In this document: piece by piece, positions 15,225 through 59,276 of the stretch
How the letters are laid out: each line of letters starts with the position of its first letter
Numbering within the stretch: the stretch's first letter is position 1
Assembly (NCBI RefSeq): GCF_000215085.1
Contig: NC_015589.1
Coordinates: forward strand, 2,740,120-2,804,119
DNA: 64,000 nt
Direction of reading: 5' to 3'
Origin: Desulforamulus ruminis DSM 2154
GTDB lineage: Bacteria > Bacillota > Desulfotomaculia > Desulfotomaculales > Desulfotomaculaceae
Notes under the pieces: model-generated
Database searches by the model: none
The model's input: only the letters and a program-made list of their open reading frames with translations
Told to the model about the DNA's origin: nothing
Translations under genes and position numbers: made by a program

Positions 15225-15292
15225 ATCATGCAGGGGCTATTGCAAAAAGAACTTAAAAGAGTCCTAATGCGCAGCCCCTTATTAAAAACAAA

Positions 15293-15396
15293 GAATAGAA
15301 CGCGGATTGAACGGATAATACAGATTTGCGCGGATTTAAAATATAATTAAAAATCCGCGCGAATCCGTGGAAATCCGTAGAATCCGCGTTCTATTC
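15293..15396. repeat. Dispersed CGGATT palindromic repeat, copy 1 (inverted orientation)
   Basis: Terminal arms GAATAGAACGCGGATT (15293-15308) and AATCCGCGTTCTATTC (15381-15396) are perfectly complementary. The interior carries several further CGGATT/AATCCG units on both arms around an AT-rich centre. Its reverse complement aligns along its whole length with the copies at 41757 and 54369. Confidence 0.85.
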
Positions 15397-15420
15397 CTAT
15401 TTGCAACAAGCCCTTTGCAC

Positions 15421-27735: not shown

Positions 27736-30700
27736 CTAGCCGTTACAAGCGTCCAGCATGGCAACAATTTGTTGTTTTTCAAAGCCTTTTTGCTGGCAGG
27801 CGCCGCTGGGGCAGGCCGCCACACAGGCGCCGCAGCCCTGACAAAGCACATCAAGCACTTCAGCCACATTGGTGATTTCATTCATGGTTCTGGCGCCATA
27901 AGAGCAAGCCTCTATACACAGGCCACAACCTTTGCACCACTTCGGATTGACCTGCGCCACGTTGCCAAGGGACTCCAGCTTATCTTTGGACAGCATGGTT
28001 ACAGCCCGCACGGCTGCGGCATTGGCCTGGGCAATGGATTCCTCAATGAGCTTGGGTGAGTGGGCCAAACCGCACAGGTATAAACCATCGGCGGCAAAAT
28101 CCACCGGACGTAGTTTCATATGGGCTTCTAAATAGAAATTATCGGCATTTAAAGAAACCTTAAAAATTTGGCTTAAGCCATCCGTGCCTTGGGCCGGAAT
28201 CAGTCCGGTGCTTAAAATGAGCAGATCGGTCTCCAATTCCAGCTTGCGGTTTAAAATCGGATCCTTTATAGAAACCTTCAATTGATCGCCCAGCGCTTCC
28301 ACTTGGGGTTTCTCTTCCAGGGTGTATCTAACAAAGACAACCCCTTTCTTTCTGGCTTCGGCGTAGTAGGTTTCATAAAAGCCATAGGTGCGAATATCCC
28401 GGTAAAGTACAAAGACATTGGCCTCGGGATTCTGTTCTTTAATTTTCAAGGCATTTTTAACGGCGCTGTAACAACAAATACGGCTGCAGTAGGGGCGTTC
28501 GCTGTCCCTGGAACCCACACATTGAATCATGACAATGTTCCGGGCGGAGCCAATACCGGGACCCGCCAGCTTTTGCTCTAATTCCCTCTGGGTTAAGACC
28601 GCCTCATGCTGTCCGTAGAGATACTCGCCGGTGGTGGCCAGTTCGGCTCCGGTGGCAATAATCACCACCCCGTGGGACACTTCTTTGTCGCCTCCGGGAG
28701 TGCTGAGAGTGGTTTTATAGTTGCCCAGGTAACCGGCCACTTCTTTAATATTGGAATTCAGGTTCAAATCAATATTGCTGTGATTTTGCACGTCCCTGAT
28801 CAGGGATTCCACCAGTTCCAAGGGACGGTTGCCCTTCATGGTGTATTGAATCTCCAAAGCATTGCCGCCCAATTTATCCGTACGTTCAACCAGAATAACC
28901 TTGAAACCCTGATTGGCCAGATTCAAGGCGTTGGTCATACCGGCCACACCGCCGCCGATGACCAGAGCCTGACGGTTAATATCCATAAAGGAGGTATATA
29001 CAGGTTTTAGCAGCCTCACTTTGGCCACCGCCATTTTAACCAAATCCTTGGCTTTTTCGGTGGCTGCCTCGGGATAATTGCGGTGCACCCAGGAGGAATG
29101 CTCCCGGATGTTGGCCTGTTCAAACAGGTAGGGGTTCAATCCGGATTCCTTCAAACTGCTCATAAACAAGGGAGCATGGGTTCTAGGCGTACAAGAAGCC
29201 ACTACCACCCGGTTTAATTGATGCTCTTGTATCCGTTCTTTAATTTTTTCAATACTGTCCTGGGAACAACTAAAGAGGAATTCTTCGGTATGCACCACGC
29301 CGGGCAGGGTTTTGGCAAACTCAGCTACTTCAGGCACCCGGACAACACTGCCGATATTGATGCCGCAGTTGCACACAAAGACACCGATTCTGGGGTCCTC
29401 CTGGGTAACATCCCTTTCCGGCGGGTATTCCTTGATTTGACTGAGGGTTCCCCGCACGTCGCTTAGCAATTGAGCGGCATTGGCTGCGGCGGCGCTGGCA
29501 TCCACCACGGTCTCGGGAATATCCTTGGGCGCACAGAAAGCGCCGCTGGCAAAGACGCCTTCCCGGGTGCTTTGGCCCGGAGCAAATTCCAGGGTCTTGC
29601 AGAAACCGTAAGGATCCAGCTCAATACCGCAGGCTTTAGCCAGTTGAGCATTGCCGGAGGATGGTTTAAGGCCTACCGAGAGAACCATCATATCAAACTC
29701 TTCTTCAGCAAACTTCCCGTCGGGAGTCCTATAGCGAACGATTAAATTTTTGGTGTTGGGATCTTCTTTTATGGAAGAAACCATGGCCTTTTCATACTTG
29801 ACGCCGTGCTGAATTCTGGCCCGGTCGTAATATTTCTCAAAATCCTTGCCATAGGCCCGGACATCCATATAAAAAATTTTAGTTTCCAGGCCTTCCTCAT
29901 GTTCCTGGGCAATAATGGCGTGTTTGGTGGCATACATGCAGCATACCGCCGAGCAGTAAGGATTGCCTTTGGCGCTGTCCCTGGAGCCCACGCATTGAAT
30001 AAAGCCAACTTTCTTGGGTTCCACATGATCTGAAGGGCGTACCAGATGCCCCATGGTGGGACCGCTGGCAGACAGCAGACGCTCAAACTGCAGGCTGGTC
30101 AATACGTTCGCATAGATACCCCAGCCGAATTCTCCCCGCAGCTCTCCGTCCATGGGTTCAAAGCCGGGGCTGAGAATCACCGCGCCCACCGCCAATTCCA
30201 GCCGGGTATCCGGCATGCTGTGGTCGATGGCCCCGGCAGGACATGCCTTGAGGCATTTCCCGCAGGCTTTAGGATTTTTAATCTTTAAGCACTTGCTTTT
30301 GTCAATGGCATAGGCATTGGGCGTCGCCTGGGCGTACAGCTTGTAGATGGCTTTACGCTTGCCCAGGCCGCCGTCAAAGTCGTCATTCACTTTAACCGGG
30401 CACTCCTCGGCGCAGGCGCCGCAGCCGATGCATTTTTCCAGACTTACGCAGCGGGCCTGCTGCGCCACGGTAGCTTTAAAGTTGCCTGGTTCCCCGTCCA
30501 GACCGACCAGTTCGGCACCGGTAATAATTTCAATGTTCAGGTGACGGCCTACGTCAACCAGTTTGGGGGACATTGTGCACATGGCACAATCGTTGGTGGG
30601 AAAGGTTTTATCCAGCCTGGCCATAGTACCCCCGATGGCGGGCTTCTTCTCCACCAGATAAACCCGGTAGCCGGATTCGGCCAGGTCCAGGGCGGACTGC

Positions 30701-30759
30701 ATCCCGGAGATGCCCCCGCCCACAACCAGTACCGCACCAATTTTGTTTTTATCCGTCAT
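27736..30759 (-). CDS. hdrA: HdrA-like flavin/iron-sulfur subunit, two-unit form
   Basis: 1007 residues. HdrA carries the FAD where electron bifurcation takes place in heterodisulfide reductase complexes. This protein is a tandem: a first unit (about 1-450) with GGGISGMQSALDLAESG, CIGCGACAEECP and CGKCLKACP, then a second, complete HdrA unit with VFVCNCGINIGS (about 465), a second FAD fold VIGGGVAGMTNA (about 610) and C-terminal ferredoxin motifs CKGCGLCIEAC and CQGCGACVAACP. The reading frame is open to 30792, inside the upstream gene; AGGAGG at 30772-30777 points to the ATG at 30759. It is closely similar to the 1483-residue neighbour minus its insert. Confidence 0.92.
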   Translation of the reverse strand: MTDKNKIGAVLVVGGGISGMQSALDLAESGYRVYLVEKKPAIGGTMARLDKTFPTNDCAMCTMSPKLVDVGRHLNIEIITGAELVGLDGEPGNFKATVAQQARCVSLEKCIGCGACAEECPVKVNDDFDGGLGKRKAIYKLYAQATPNAYAIDKSKCLKIKNPKACGKCLKACPAGAIDHSMPDTRLELAVGAVILSPGFEPMDGELRGEFGWGIYANVLTSLQFERLLSASGPTMGHLVRPSDHVEPKKVGFIQCVGSRDSAKGNPYCSAVCCMYATKHAIIAQEHEEGLETKIFYMDVRAYGKDFEKYYDRARIQHGVKYEKAMVSSIKEDPNTKNLIVRYRTPDGKFAEEEFDMMVLSVGLKPSSGNAQLAKACGIELDPYGFCKTLEFAPGQSTREGVFASGAFCAPKDIPETVVDASAAAANAAQLLSDVRGTLSQIKEYPPERDVTQEDPRIGVFVCNCGINIGSVVRVPEVAEFAKTLPGVVHTEEFLFSCSQDSIEKIKERIQEHQLNRVVVASCTPRTHAPLFMSSLKESGLNPYLFEQANIREHSSWVHRNYPEAATEKAKDLVKMAVAKVRLLKPVYTSFMDINRQALVIGGGVAGMTNALNLANQGFKVILVERTDKLGGNALEIQYTMKGNRPLELVESLIRDVQNHSNIDLNLNSNIKEVAGYLGNYKTTLSTPGGDKEVSHGVVIIATGAELATTGEYLYGQHEAVLTQRELEQKLAGPGIGSARNIVMIQCVGSRDSERPYCSRICCYSAVKNALKIKEQNPEANVFVLYRDIRTYGFYETYYAEARKKGVVFVRYTLEEKPQVEALGDQLKVSIKDPILNRKLELETDLLILSTGLIPAQGTDGLSQIFKVSLNADNFYLEAHMKLRPVDFAADGLYLCGLAHSPKLIEESIAQANAAAVRAVTMLSKDKLESLGNVAQVNPKWCKGCGLCIEACSYGARTMNEITNVAEVLDVLCQGCGACVAACPSGACQQKGFEKQQIVAMLDACNG

Positions 30760-30775
30760 AGGTTTTTCCAACCTC

Positions 30776-33700
30776 CTATCCCAAAGCCGCATCCATCATA
30801 GCGAGCAGTTGTTCCTTTTCAAAACCCTTCTGCTGGGTGGCGCCGCTGGGGCAGGCTGCCACACAGGCGCCACAGCCCTGACACAGCACCTCACGAACCA
30901 GGGCCACTCCCCTGCGTTCATCCAATACCCGGGCACCATAGACACAGGCTTCGACACAAATTCCGCAGCCCTTGCAGAGTTCCAAATCCACCTCCGCCGT
31001 GATGCCCAGGGATTCCAACCGGCCTTTGGAAAGCAAAGTCCCCGCCCGGACTGAGGCCGCATTGGCCTGGGAAATGGTTTCGCTGATGTTTTTGGGACCA
31101 TGTGCCAGTCCGCACAGGTACAATCCGTCCGCCGCAAAGTCAACCGGCCGCAGCTTCATGTGCGCCTCCAGGAAGAAGCCGTCGGCATTCAGCGGCACTT
31201 TAAACAACTGGCTTAACCGCTCGGTGTCCGGGCGGGGCTTGATACCGTTGCCCAGGGCCAGAATATCCGCATCGATTTCAATGGGCTGCTGCAGCACATG
31301 ATCCGTTATCGTCACCTTAACCCGGTTGCCGTTGGCGGTCACCTTGGGCTTGTCGTCCACACTGTAGCGAATGAAGATGACTCCCTTCCGGCGGGCTTCG
31401 GTGTAGTATTCTTCTTTAAAGCCATAGGTTCGAATATCCCGGTAGAGCACCAGCACATTGGCCTTGGGGTTTAACTCCTTTATTTTTAAGGCATTTTTAA
31501 TGGCATGGGTGCAGCAAACTCGGCTGCAGTAGGGATGTTCGGGCTCCCGGGAACCCACACAGTTGATCATCACTACCGTACCGGCATCTCCTAAACCTTG
31601 ATCCGCCAACTTCTGCTCCAACTGGGTTTGGGTCATTACCGCAGGACTGCTGCCGTAAAGGTAATCCGCCGGCTCAATTTCATCGGCGCCGGTGGCGATA
31701 ATCACCGCGCCGTGATTTACCTCCTCCTTGGAACCGTCCTCCTTAATCAGGGTGGTGATATAATTACCCAGATAACCGGCCACCTCTTCAACTTGAGCGT
31801 TTATACATATATCAATTAGCGTATGATTTCCCACATCGTTCTTGAGCTTCGCCACAAAGGCGGGAATATCTTCGCCCCGTAGGCTATAGCGCAATTCCAT
31901 GGCTCTGCCGCCCAGTTCACCGCTCTTTTCCACCAGGGTAACAGGGAATCCCTGCTCGGCCAGGGACAGGGCGTTGGTCATACCGGCCACACCGCCGCCC
32001 ACCACCAGGGCCCGCTGGTTTACATCAATAAAAGAAGTTTGTACCGGTTTCAGCAGCCTCACTTTGGCCACCGCCATTTTAACCAGATCTTTGGCCTTCT
32101 CGGTGGCTTCTTCGGGAACGTCCCGGTGTACCCAGGAAGACTGCTCGCGAATGTTGGCGTGCTCATACAAATAAGGGTTCAGCCCCGCCTCCTTCATGCT
32201 GCTCTGGAACAGCGGCGCGTGGGTCCGGGGCGTGCAGGAAGCCACCACCACCCGGTTTAAGTCGTGCTCTTTAATCCGTTCCTTGATTTTATCAATATTA
32301 TCCTGGGAACAACTAAACAGGAATTCTTCCGTATGAACCACACCCGGCAGGGTTTTGGCAAAGGCGGCCACTTCCGGCACTTTGACTACACTGCCGATGT
32401 TGATGCCGCAGTTGCAGACAAACACCCCCACCCTGGGCAATTGGTTGCTGACATCCTTCTCCGGCGGGAACTCCTGAACCGCCGCCAGAGTGCCCCGGGC
32501 CGGCGCTAACAGACGGGAAGCCATGGCGGCGGCGGCACTGGCGTCCACGGCCGTTTCCGGAATATCTTTGGGTTCACCAAAAGCCCCGCTGACAAAGATA
32601 CCTGGACGGGAGCTGCAGCCGGGGCTGAATTCATCGCTGCGGCAGAAACCGTAGGAATCCAGTTCAATGCCGGCGGCCTCGCCCAGTTCCTGGGCTCCTT
32701 CCGGGGCGGACAGTCCGATGGAGAGGACCACCATATCATAGGTTTCCGTATAAATCTGGCCATTCTCATCGGCATAACGAATAAATACATCGCCGCTGTC
32801 ATCGGGAACCGGATCAATGCCGTAAATGCGGGAGCGGACAAATCTTACGCCATGCTCCTCCTTGGCCCGGTTCTGGTAGCGTTCAAAATCTTTGCCCGGC
32901 GTACGCATATCCATATAAAACAGTGTTGCTTCCAGGGGGTCATGGCTGTGCTCCTTGGCGATAATGGCCTGCTTAATGGCATACATGCAGCAAACCGACG
33001 AGCAGTATCCCTTGCCAATCCTTTCGTTACGGGAACCAACACACTGAATCCAGGCAATTTTAGCCGGTTCCTTGTGATCCGACGGGCGCACCATATGCCC
33101 GGAAAAGGGACCGCTGGCGGACAAAATCCGTTCAAATTGAATGCTGGTCACCACATTGGGCAGCCGGCCGTAACCATACAGTTTTAAGTCCGTTGGATCA
33201 TAGGGTTTGAAGCCGGGGTTCATCACCAGAGCCCCCACTTCCAGCTCCAGTTCCCGGTCTTGCATACTGTGGTCAATGGCTTTGGGCAGGCAGGCATCCA
33301 CACACTGCATGCACTCGGAACAAACGGCGCAGTTTAAGCAGCGTTCCGCCTCGGCTTGAGCCTGCTCCGGAGTATAGCCCAGACAAACCTCTTCGCTGCC
33401 GGCAGACCTTCTTTGCGCCGGAGCGTGCCCCTGTTTCACCCGGGGCTGCGGGGCATAGGATTCCGCCTTCCGCGGTATGGGAGAAATTCTTTCTTCGGGC
33501 AGCTTAAATTGCCGGCCGGCCCGGAGATCTTCACCCTGAATATAGCGGTGAATACTTTCCGCCGCCCGTTTACCGGCTCCCACGGCATCAATCAGCAGAG
33601 CCGGACCGGTGAAAACATCCCCGCCGGTAAAAATACCGGGTACATTGGTAGCCAGCGTATCGGGATCCGCCACAATGCGGCTGCCCCATTCATTGGCCAG

Positions 33701-35227
33701 GGGTTTGTCTCCGGCAAAGGATAAATCCGCAGCCTGGCCAATGGCCGAGATCACGGTATCCACGCCGGTCCACTTGGTAATCTCATCACCGTAAACAGGC
33801 ACCCAGCGGCCCTTTTGATCCTTTTCCATCCGCAAAACTTGAATGGATTCAACCACATCGATCTTCCCGTTCTTGCCTTTTATCTCTTTAATCAGGGTTT
33901 TAAAATGGAATTGAATGCCCTCTTCAATGGCTTCCTCCACTTCTTCCGCTGCCGCAGGCATTTCACCCCGGGTCCGGCGGTACAGGACATGCACTTCCGC
34001 CCCCATGCGGCGGGCGCTGCGGGCGGCGTCCATGGCCACGTTGCCGCCGCCCACCACCAGAACCTTGCGTCCAACTTTCACTTCTTGGCCCAAACCAATT
34101 TCACGCAGCATATCCACCGCGGAGATAACGCCTTTCAGATCTTCCCCGGGGGTTCTCATGCTGGTTCCCTTCTGGCAGCCGACTCCCAGAAAAATGGCTT
34201 TATATCCTTCTTTAAACAATCCGTCCAGGGTAATATCCTTCCCTAGGGCGGTGTTGACTTTAATCTCCACGCCCAGCCGCCGAATCAAATCAATCTCCAA
34301 ATCCACCCATTTTTTCGGCAGACGGTATTCCGGAATGCCCACCCGCATCATGCCGCCGGTAACCGGCAGGGCCTCAAATATGGTGACCCGGTATCCCTTC
34401 AAAGCCAGGAAATGGGCTGCAGACAAACCCGCCGGGCCGGAACCGATCACCGCGACCTTTTCTTCCCGGTCCGCTTCCTTTTGCGGCAGGGGCAGTTGAT
34501 CGAGATCTTGCTGATAAGCCATGTCCGCGGCTAATCTTTTTAAAGTGGCAATTTGTATGGGTTCATCCACCTGACCCCGGTTGCAGGCCGTCTGGCAGGG
34601 GTGAGCGCAAATGCGGCCGCAGATGGCCGGGAAAGGCATTTCTTCATAGATCATTTTCCAGGCATCAATAAATTTTCCCGATTTAATTAACTGCACATAG
34701 CCCTGCACGTTAATTCCCGCAGGGCAGGCGTTTTTACAAGGGGCGACCCCGCGCTTGTCAATGGCAAAGGCATTGGGCGTGGCCTGGGCATACAGCTTAT
34801 AAGTAGCTTTGCGTGTATCAATCTCGCCGTTAAACTCATTGGGCAGTTCCACCGGGCAAACCCGGGCGCAATCCCCGCAGCCGGTACATTTGGCAATATC
34901 TACATAACGGGCCTTTTGTTCAACCTTTACTTTAAAATGGCCCGGTTCCCCGCTGACTCCCTTTACTTTGGCCCCGGTAATAATCTCAATGTTATTATGG
35001 CGACCGGTATCCACCAGTTTGGGGGACATGATACACATGGCGCAGTCATTGGTCGGAAAGGTTTTATCCAACCGGGCCATGGTGCCCCCAATGGCAGGCT
35101 TTTCATCCAATAGATAAACTTTAAAACCGGATTCAGCCAGGTCCAGAGCGGATTGCATTCCTGAAATGCCGCCTCCCACCACCATCACTGCACCGGTCAT
35201 GTTATTATCGGTTTGGACGTTGCTCAT
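30776..35227 (-). CDS. HdrA-like subunit with NfnB/GltD-type NAD(P)H oxidoreductase inserted in its ferredoxin domain
   Basis: 1483 residues. Residues 1-158 match the first unit of the neighbouring HdrA (GGGISGMQSALDLAESG; CTGCGDCARVCP at 114-125). At 159 the alignment breaks and a complete glutamate-synthase-beta/NfnB-like module follows: N-terminal Fe-S segment CKNACPAGINVQGY and CGRICAHPCQTAC (164-215), FAD fold GSGPAGLSAA (262-271) and NAD(P)H fold GGGNVAMDAARSARRMGA (393-410). The HdrA sequence resumes near 636 (CSECMQCVDAC) and runs through a second HdrA unit to two final ferredoxin motifs. The insert gives the complex its own NAD(P)H site. Co-transcribed with the genes on both sides. 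Confidence 0.93.
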   Translation of the reverse strand: MSNVQTDNNMTGAVMVVGGGISGMQSALDLAESGFKVYLLDEKPAIGGTMARLDKTFPTNDCAMCIMSPKLVDTGRHNNIEIITGAKVKGVSGEPGHFKVKVEQKARYVDIAKCTGCGDCARVCPVELPNEFNGEIDTRKATYKLYAQATPNAFAIDKRGVAPCKNACPAGINVQGYVQLIKSGKFIDAWKMIYEEMPFPAICGRICAHPCQTACNRGQVDEPIQIATLKRLAADMAYQQDLDQLPLPQKEADREEKVAVIGSGPAGLSAAHFLALKGYRVTIFEALPVTGGMMRVGIPEYRLPKKWVDLEIDLIRRLGVEIKVNTALGKDITLDGLFKEGYKAIFLGVGCQKGTSMRTPGEDLKGVISAVDMLREIGLGQEVKVGRKVLVVGGGNVAMDAARSARRMGAEVHVLYRRTRGEMPAAAEEVEEAIEEGIQFHFKTLIKEIKGKNGKIDVVESIQVLRMEKDQKGRWVPVYGDEITKWTGVDTVISAIGQAADLSFAGDKPLANEWGSRIVADPDTLATNVPGIFTGGDVFTGPALLIDAVGAGKRAAESIHRYIQGEDLRAGRQFKLPEERISPIPRKAESYAPQPRVKQGHAPAQRRSAGSEEVCLGYTPEQAQAEAERCLNCAVCSECMQCVDACLPKAIDHSMQDRELELEVGALVMNPGFKPYDPTDLKLYGYGRLPNVVTSIQFERILSASGPFSGHMVRPSDHKEPAKIAWIQCVGSRNERIGKGYCSSVCCMYAIKQAIIAKEHSHDPLEATLFYMDMRTPGKDFERYQNRAKEEHGVRFVRSRIYGIDPVPDDSGDVFIRYADENGQIYTETYDMVVLSIGLSAPEGAQELGEAAGIELDSYGFCRSDEFSPGCSSRPGIFVSGAFGEPKDIPETAVDASAAAAMASRLLAPARGTLAAVQEFPPEKDVSNQLPRVGVFVCNCGINIGSVVKVPEVAAFAKTLPGVVHTEEFLFSCSQDNIDKIKERIKEHDLNRVVVASCTPRTHAPLFQSSMKEAGLNPYLYEHANIREQSSWVHRDVPEEATEKAKDLVKMAVAKVRLLKPVQTSFIDVNQRALVVGGGVAGMTNALSLAEQGFPVTLVEKSGELGGRAMELRYSLRGEDIPAFVAKLKNDVGNHTLIDICINAQVEEVAGYLGNYITTLIKEDGSKEEVNHGAVIIATGADEIEPADYLYGSSPAVMTQTQLEQKLADQGLGDAGTVVMINCVGSREPEHPYCSRVCCTHAIKNALKIKELNPKANVLVLYRDIRTYGFKEEYYTEARRKGVIFIRYSVDDKPKVTANGNRVKVTITDHVLQQPIEIDADILALGNGIKPRPDTERLSQLFKVPLNADGFFLEAHMKLRPVDFAADGLYLCGLAHGPKNISETISQANAASVRAGTLLSKGRLESLGITAEVDLELCKGCGICVEACVYGARVLDERRGVALVREVLCQGCGACVAACPSGATQQKGFEKEQLLAMMDAALG

Positions 35228-41756: not shown

Positions 41757-41857
41757 TAGAACACGGATTTTACGGATTTCCACGGATTCTCACGGATTGA
41801 ATTAATATTTAAATAAGATCCGCGCAAATCCGTATTATTCGTTCAATCCGTGTTCTA
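41757..41857. repeat. Dispersed CGGATT palindromic repeat, copy 2
   Basis: Arms TAGAACACGGATT (41757-41769) and AATCCGTGTTCTA (41845-41857) are complementary. The left arm has four CGGATT units at about 10-11-base spacing. The homology with copy 3 continues past the right arm (TTATTAGCCG, then TTGGCGCG at 41898-41905). Confidence 0.88.
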
Positions 41858-54252: not shown

Positions 54253-54368
54253 TTTTTCTCGGTCCTGCGGTTCTGCGGCTAAAGAATCGGAAATAAACCC
54301 CTTGCAAAGTGAATGGCGGTTGCAAATAGGATGGTTCGTATTACGCAGCTCTTTTTCTAAAAAATAAC

Positions 54369-54477
54369 AAAAATAGAACACGGATGTTACGGATTCCCAC
54401 GGATCTCACGGATTTTTAAATCTTTATTTAAAATCCGCGTAAATCCGTATCATCCGTTCAATCCGTGTTCTATTTTT
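54369..54477. repeat. Dispersed CGGATT palindromic repeat, copy 3
   Basis: Arms AAAAATAGAACACGGAT (54369-54385) and ATCCGTGTTCTATTTTT (54461-54477) are perfectly complementary (17 bp). The interior units repeat CGGAT at ~10-base spacing. Like copy 2 it is followed by TTATTAGCCG and TTGGCGCG. Confidence 0.88.
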
Positions 54478-54536
54478 ATTAGCCGGTTCTTTGGCGCGCT
54501 TTTGAAAAATAGTTTTGCGACATTTATTTCAATGTT

Positions 54537-59040: not shown

Positions 59041-59276
59041 AAAACAATATCCCCGGGGTCATCCATACCCCGGGGATTAACATGCTACCCGCTTAGCCGT
59101 CCGCCTGGTGTTTTTAATACCTGCTTCTCACAGGTGGGTGCCCTCTAAACCCTTTCTACCTTCCACTCTCCGGCGGCCTGGTATACACGGTTTAAGCGAA
59201 GCTCCCTTAAAACACACTGTGGTTTAAAAATCAACAAGCAACGCACAAAGCAGGAACTGATTTTTTTCTGCTGGCC
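59041..59276 (-). ncRNA. Candidate 6S RNA (ssrS-like)
   Basis: A ~235-nt untranslated transcript predicted from strong signals: a sigma-A promoter (59283-59311) directly after the stop of the upstream gene, no ORF, and a terminator at its end (ATCCCCGGGGT / ACCCCGGGGAT, 59049-59077, then TTGTTTTT). The two ends can form a long interrupted closing stem (for example TTGTTGATTTTTAA with TTAAAAACACC). The 3' part has GAGGGCACCCACCT and a small hairpin ACCTG / CAGGT, as I recall in Gram-positive 6S RNAs. 6S would bind the sigma-A holoenzyme. I give moderate confidence because the fold is by eye. Confidence 0.5.

Follow-up and report, generated by a model that had tools for sequence, protein, structure and literature searches.

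CGGATT palindromes of Desulforamulus ruminis resemble repeats that bracket genes for GxxExxY, a predicted nuclease, in other phyla

The CGGATT palindromes of Desulforamulus ruminis have the look of a mobile DNA element linked to a nuclease, not of repeats that arose by chance. We lean towards reading this palindrome of about 100 bp as the D. ruminis member of a cross-phylum palindromic family that brackets genes for GxxExxY, a predicted PD-(D/E)XK nuclease. The arms of the family follow the pattern AATAGAACRCGGAT..CGGAT..CGGAT..CGGAT. The cross-phylum link between palindrome and gene is a new result; in the open-access literature, we found no paper that describes it or ties GxxExxY (PF13366, TIGR04256) to a DNA repeat, the titles found being on other subjects. 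Desulfotomaculum species such as D. ruminis are now assigned to Desulforamulus.

An earlier note, made from the letters of the DNA, had described three dispersed palindromes in the window, the whole stretch of 64,000 nucleotides of D. ruminis DSM 2154 that was analysed. All three lie where it placed them and are homologous from end to end. Their cores, measured from TAGAAC to GTTCTA, are 98-101 bp long. Each arm holds four CGGATT-type units spaced about 9-11 bp apart, which bears out the periodicity that had been noticed, and CACGGATT occurs seven times in the window against 1.8 expected. As single-stranded DNA, copies 1, 2 and 3 all fold much better than shuffles do, with z values of -10.4, -5.6 and -9.8, respectively. 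All three copies are intergenic, as had been claimed. The additional sequence common to the right-hand sides of copies 2 and 3 proved to be a genuine flank, which we call A, and a second flank, B, is present in copies 1 and 3. Copy 1 was also rightly called inverted, its core being flipped relative to its own flanks. Flank A is missing from copy 1, and flank B was undetected at copy 2. The features in the window are:

15233..15278, + strand: copy 1 flank B, hairpin GGGGCTATTGCAAAAAG...TGCGCAGCCCC and left end of the larger unit
15293..15396, + strand: copy 1 core (CGGATT palindrome), flipped with respect to the B flank of the same copy
15400..15413, + strand: copy 1 possible right end TTTGCAACAAGCCC, inverted-repeat-like (tentative, read from the sequence)
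41757..41857, + strand: copy 2 core (CGGATT palindrome), which begins about 14 bp past a stop codon
41858..41935, + strand: copy 2 flank A and approximate right end (boundary approximate)
54313..54351, + strand: copy 3 flank B, degenerate (boundary approximate)
54369..54477, + strand: copy 3 core (CGGATT palindrome), whose AT ends are extended
54478..54525, + strand: copy 3 flank A and right end (TAGTTTTGCGACA) (boundary approximate)

The genome paper (PMC3569383) gives a single chromosome of 3,969,014 bases for D. ruminis DL and, on text search, contains no description of a CGGATT palindrome. A genome-wide BLAST search, as the earlier note had proposed, returned 112 candidates, and all 40 that were scored match over the full length. 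With a covariance model built from 31 aligned D. ruminis cores only (R1), we identified at least 83 distinct loci in this genome, three of which are the window copies; at least four further copies, more eroded, lie beyond these 83. As they derive from searches, these copy numbers are lower bounds. It had been allowed that the three copies might be the only ones and have no relatives, and neither is the case. The aligned arm consensus is AATAGAACRCGGATT-nn-ACGGAT-nnn-ACGGATT-nn-CRCGGATTTT, followed by an AT-rich loop of about 10-20 bases and then by the inverse, and the spacers distinguish the two arms (alpha TTTTACGGATTTCCACGG, beta TTGAACGGATGATACGG). A BLAST search of copy 3 against plasmids gave no match. 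At the D. ruminis loci L201, L202, L203 and L205, the flanks look intact and the palindrome between them is lost in part or nearly in full, which is what instability of palindromes would lead one to expect.

No convincing copy of the palindrome was found in eight other genomes of the genus, which, like the phylum below, was sampled at one genome per species. Two weak R1 matches in congeners (L120 and L121) were rejected, as no CGGATT units were seen on reading. Around copies 2 and 3, a stretch of 15 kb has matching collinear blocks in each of the six congeners that were searched. A check for empty sites, which had been proposed for related strains, was made in these sister species and showed the element to be absent from the aligned intergenic region at copy 2 in five congeners and at copy 3 in three. 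Exact empty-site junctions were not found, since the flanking intergenic sequence is too diverged among congeners. This pattern is most simply read as insertion in D. ruminis, with loss elsewhere less likely.

The same observations bear on whether the palindromes are a fixed regulatory or structural DNA element (a terminator, a protein-binding array or a nucleoid site) that selection maintains at the ends of genes, a reading which we consider improbable. Such an element would suit the gene context of 31 copies as judged by ORF heuristics (14 convergent, 16 tandem and one nominally divergent), the strong hairpins and the unit spacing near one helical turn. However, the bias towards gene ends is also expected from selection against disruptive insertions. 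A fixed element also sits poorly with its absence from all congeners and orthologous sites, with the frequent erosion or truncation of copies, and with copy 1, where a simple terminator was undetected and no terminator-like site is seen. The earlier idea of a structured RNA is likewise unsupported, Rfam models giving no match at the three sites.

The description of the palindromes as a REP- or MITE-like mobile unit stands as far as their number (at least 83 intergenic copies), their related terminal inverted repeats and their absence at orthologous sister-species sites are concerned, and is unsupported as regards a REP-associated transposase. Two Y1-transposase matches occur in the D. ruminis genome, one of them interrupted by an internal stop. 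The other, an intact RAYT-like gene (L031, 1380-2345), has inverted GGGTCAGGCTTGATTTATTGAC ends on both sides and no CGGATT palindrome nearby. That the palindromes are REP elements of the RAYT (Y1 transposase) type is hardly credible, even with Y1 genes in the genome and with one feature of such systems, interspersed high-copy intergenic palindromes, present in D. ruminis. Two defining features are absent, namely a Y1 (PF01797) gene flanked by the repeats and a palindrome of 20-40 bp, the length given for REPs in PMC3733652, against about 100 bp here.

Most D. ruminis cores sit within a larger unit of 230-260 bp, composed of flank B, the palindrome and flank A. Flank B is a hairpin that starts with GGGGCTGNTGCAAAA and ends with TGCGCAGCCCC, and B and A terminate on their outer sides in inverted repeats that are related to each other (AAGGG..TG..GCAAAA) and divergent between copies. 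Calling flanks above the 99% level of a null drawn from neighbouring sequence, we found both flanks in 38 of the 83 copies, A only in 18, B only in 13 and neither in 14; at least one flank is kept in 69. The core is inverted relative to the B/A flanks in 13 of the 60 scorable copies: copy 1 (w1) and 12 of the 59 others, including L016 and L002. This fits recombination or template switching at the palindrome, with neither preferred.

The larger unit looks like a non-autonomous transposon. On reading its flanks, which are too diverged from congeners for exact junctions, no target-site duplication was evident. A DNA search for the full unit in 60 genomes matched D. ruminis only, apart from one chance-like match of 30 bp. 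We also looked for an 'empty' MITE, meaning a B/A unit that never had a core, and found none, as the candidates examined had eroded cores or no A flank.

An ordinary IS-derived MITE would account for part of this. The unit would then be an internally deleted IS, possibly IS1182-like, moved in trans by the transposase of that IS, with the palindrome as mere filling and the link to GxxExxY irrelevant to D. ruminis. Like MITEs and other IS-derived elements, the unit is short, non-coding, high in copy number and absent from sister species, its inverted ends are related, and most copies keep a flank. Moreover, a decayed IS1182-type element adjoining mutS2 (L096 1-1907; G000:C1 about 2501083-2502960) has ends, AAAAAGGGCGTGTCGCAAAACG and GAGGGGCTGTCGCAC, that resemble those of the palindrome-bearing unit. 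Against this, the 14 copies with neither flank have a well-kept core, and the core also occurs alone, without B/A, in other phyla. Nor does the unit have an established target duplication or an intact parent IS: in D. ruminis, no intact element with B/A-type ends was found, only the decayed one being similar. The association with GxxExxY described below would also be left unexplained. We regard the IS-derived reading as plausible for the D. ruminis unit and compatible with part of a nuclease-linked mechanism; as the whole explanation, we think it rather unlikely. The three intact IS1182-type copies (L093, L094 and L095), which are near-identical, 1.5 kb long and have TCAGACTGTCAAA ends, were rejected as the parent because their ends differ. 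These copies adjoin or lie inside hairpin (terminator-like) sequences.

A suspected likeness of the CGGATT palindrome to repeats around GxxExxY genes was tested. The D. ruminis-only model R1 detects the same palindromes adjoining GxxExxY genes in Chloroflexi, Ignavibacteria, Acidobacteria and others. In a set of 80 named GxxExxY loci from many phyla, the gene has about three times the background level of CGGAT on its upstream side and of ATCCG on its downstream side, and the end motif ATAGAACRCGGAT is common to many of the arms and to the D. ruminis palindromes. R1 detects complete palindromes no more than 150 bp from the gene at 19 of the 80 loci (22 of 34 matches at E<0.01), and they flank it on both sides in L250, L255 and L249. 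A binomial P for this nearness overstates the case, because more of the sequence around the gene is intergenic than elsewhere in the loci. Arms of two units on both sides of the gene point inward in 19 of the 80 loci and outward in three, and were found in none of 278 shifted control windows; the shifted-window control is inflated in the same way, whereas the orientation test is unaffected.

Arm-to-arm spans are 424-628 bp, with the larger values where complete palindromes flank the gene. Two layouts were seen. In one, arm, gene and arm together make up about 420-560 bp, with the GxxExxY gene in the loop; in the other, the gene is flanked by one or two complete palindromes. In the Firmicute G216 (contig HGW-Firmicutes-8, L214), the gene has CGGAT arrays pointing inward on both its sides, and a sister element that lacks the gene is found about 0.9 kb from the gene-bearing one. 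More than half of the 80 loci are without clear arms, which counts against a nuclease-linked reading. It could also be that gene and palindrome merely have the same intergenic preference or a common carrier.

R1 palindromes were found in 22 of 25 GxxExxY genomes, a figure that is biased upward as this set was mostly chosen for arms. One genome has 141 matches and another 129, corresponding to about half as many loci, since each palindrome usually matches on both strands. Among the 248 genomes of the phylum sample besides D. ruminis, only two (G157 and G264) are R1-positive, and both carry GxxExxY, which is above the cut-off in 12 of the 248 (P = 0.002 for the overlap). With its stricter filters and few positives, the co-occurrence in this 249-genome sample is supportive, not conclusive. 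Solo palindromes in other phyla terminate in a AATAGAAC-type end or one of its variants, and are located between ORFs, mostly within tens of bases of one. Two-sided changes that preserve pairing across phyla fill 64 cells, compared with 28 in shuffles, in an alignment that was fitted to the structure and holds both strands of most copies. Homology supports solo palindromes, such as those in D. ruminis, as the gene-less form of the element.

The GxxExxY gene has no match in the D. ruminis genome. Because the gene is absent there, the proposed partner cannot act in D. ruminis now, and its palindrome is at most an orphan member of the GxxExxY-associated family. Our best reading is that the nuclease was lost from D. 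ruminis or was never there. We suspect the 23S intervening-sequence (S23) protein to be a further partner gene.

The GxxExxY protein is about 120-130 aa long, and 39 aligned sequences show no variation at the GxxExxY residues, at one D and at E-x-K. It is assigned to Pfam PF13366 (PDDEXK_3) and NCBIfam TIGR04256 (GxxExxY), a family defined on protein sequence only, and its genes are the ones bracketed by relatives of the D. ruminis palindrome. A pattern scan yielded at least 590 matches from many phyla, at least 569 of them confirmed relatives. The predicted structure (pLDDT 92.6) best matches the Cas4-family protein SSO0001 (4ic1; Foldseek E-value of 8e-5, VIA-align Z of 9.7). Restriction enzymes and Hjc match less well, at Z of about 6-8 (Hjc 1gef, Z of 7.3), where values below 8 are weak evidence and a common fold says nothing on function. 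A PD-(D/E)XK nuclease fold, in common with Cas4-type nucleases (SSO0001) and Holliday-junction resolvases (Hjc), is well supported by the model, and nuclease activity is predicted only; identity to both groups is low. A sequence search for a solved structure of a GxxExxY relative gave none that was convincing. In line with a Cas4-like fold, PMC8934634 reports a GxxExxY domain next to a CRISPR-associated reverse transcriptase (GAN31766.1), at a place for which cas4 was suggested by another tool. The matched gene contains a stop in four of the 80 loci (L234, L281, L301 and L303), near its very end in L234.

By analogy, our best reading is that the nuclease-associated element would operate like a REP/RAYT system with an unrelated enzyme. 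As in REP/RAYT systems (PMC2817692, PMC3116915), solo palindromes are intergenic and high in copy number, gene and repeat are strongly linked, and a small-nuclease gene is flanked by the same palindromes in inverted orientation. Unlike these systems, where the enzyme is an HUH Y1 transposase, the CGGAT family has a predicted PD-(D/E)XK nuclease. Its palindrome is about 100 bp long with four CGGAT units per arm, the loop of a single palindrome contains the gene at many loci, and D. ruminis has the repeats without the gene.

Under this nuclease-linked reading, GxxExxY would recognise the array of CGGAT units, which recur about once per helical turn, or the cruciform or hairpin that it forms, and would cut at the array or at the extruded hairpin. 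Repair or replication after the cut might copy or delete the palindrome, much as has been proposed for RAYT enzymes acting on REPs, and gene-less copies could use the enzyme in trans. The palindrome in D. ruminis may be carried by a miniature transposon with IS-like ends. As most palindromes there lie inside a unit with transposon-like inverted ends, their recent spread was probably through a transposase acting on the outer ends of the 230-260-bp unit. Recombination or replication slippage on the hairpin might explain the inverted cores and shortened palindromes.

More tentatively, CGGAT palindromes and GxxExxY nucleases could together make up a class of minimal mobile element not described before, present in bacteria and perhaps in archaea, a proposal that we hold to be possible, if somewhat short of probable. 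Members of the class would be solo palindromes lacking the gene and a unit of about 450 bp whose own palindrome carries the nuclease gene in its loop, and they would spread by nuclease-triggered repair with no DDE or HUH transposase. If true, this would be a second REP/RAYT-like arrangement, with an unrelated enzyme, and would explain a class of 10-bp-periodic CGGAT repeats across phyla. For GxxExxY, which is widespread and has no assigned role in the libraries searched, the link to the palindrome would supply a concrete, testable substrate.

Two further observations concern the window. Its only Rfam match is a 6S RNA gene at 59082-59259 on the - strand (RF00013, 72.6 bits). The long adjacent ORFs at 27736-30792 and 30776-35227, both on the - strand, have several diverged repeated stretches in common (71-81% identity, spaced about 3.04 kb), which suggests related large proteins or an internal duplication.
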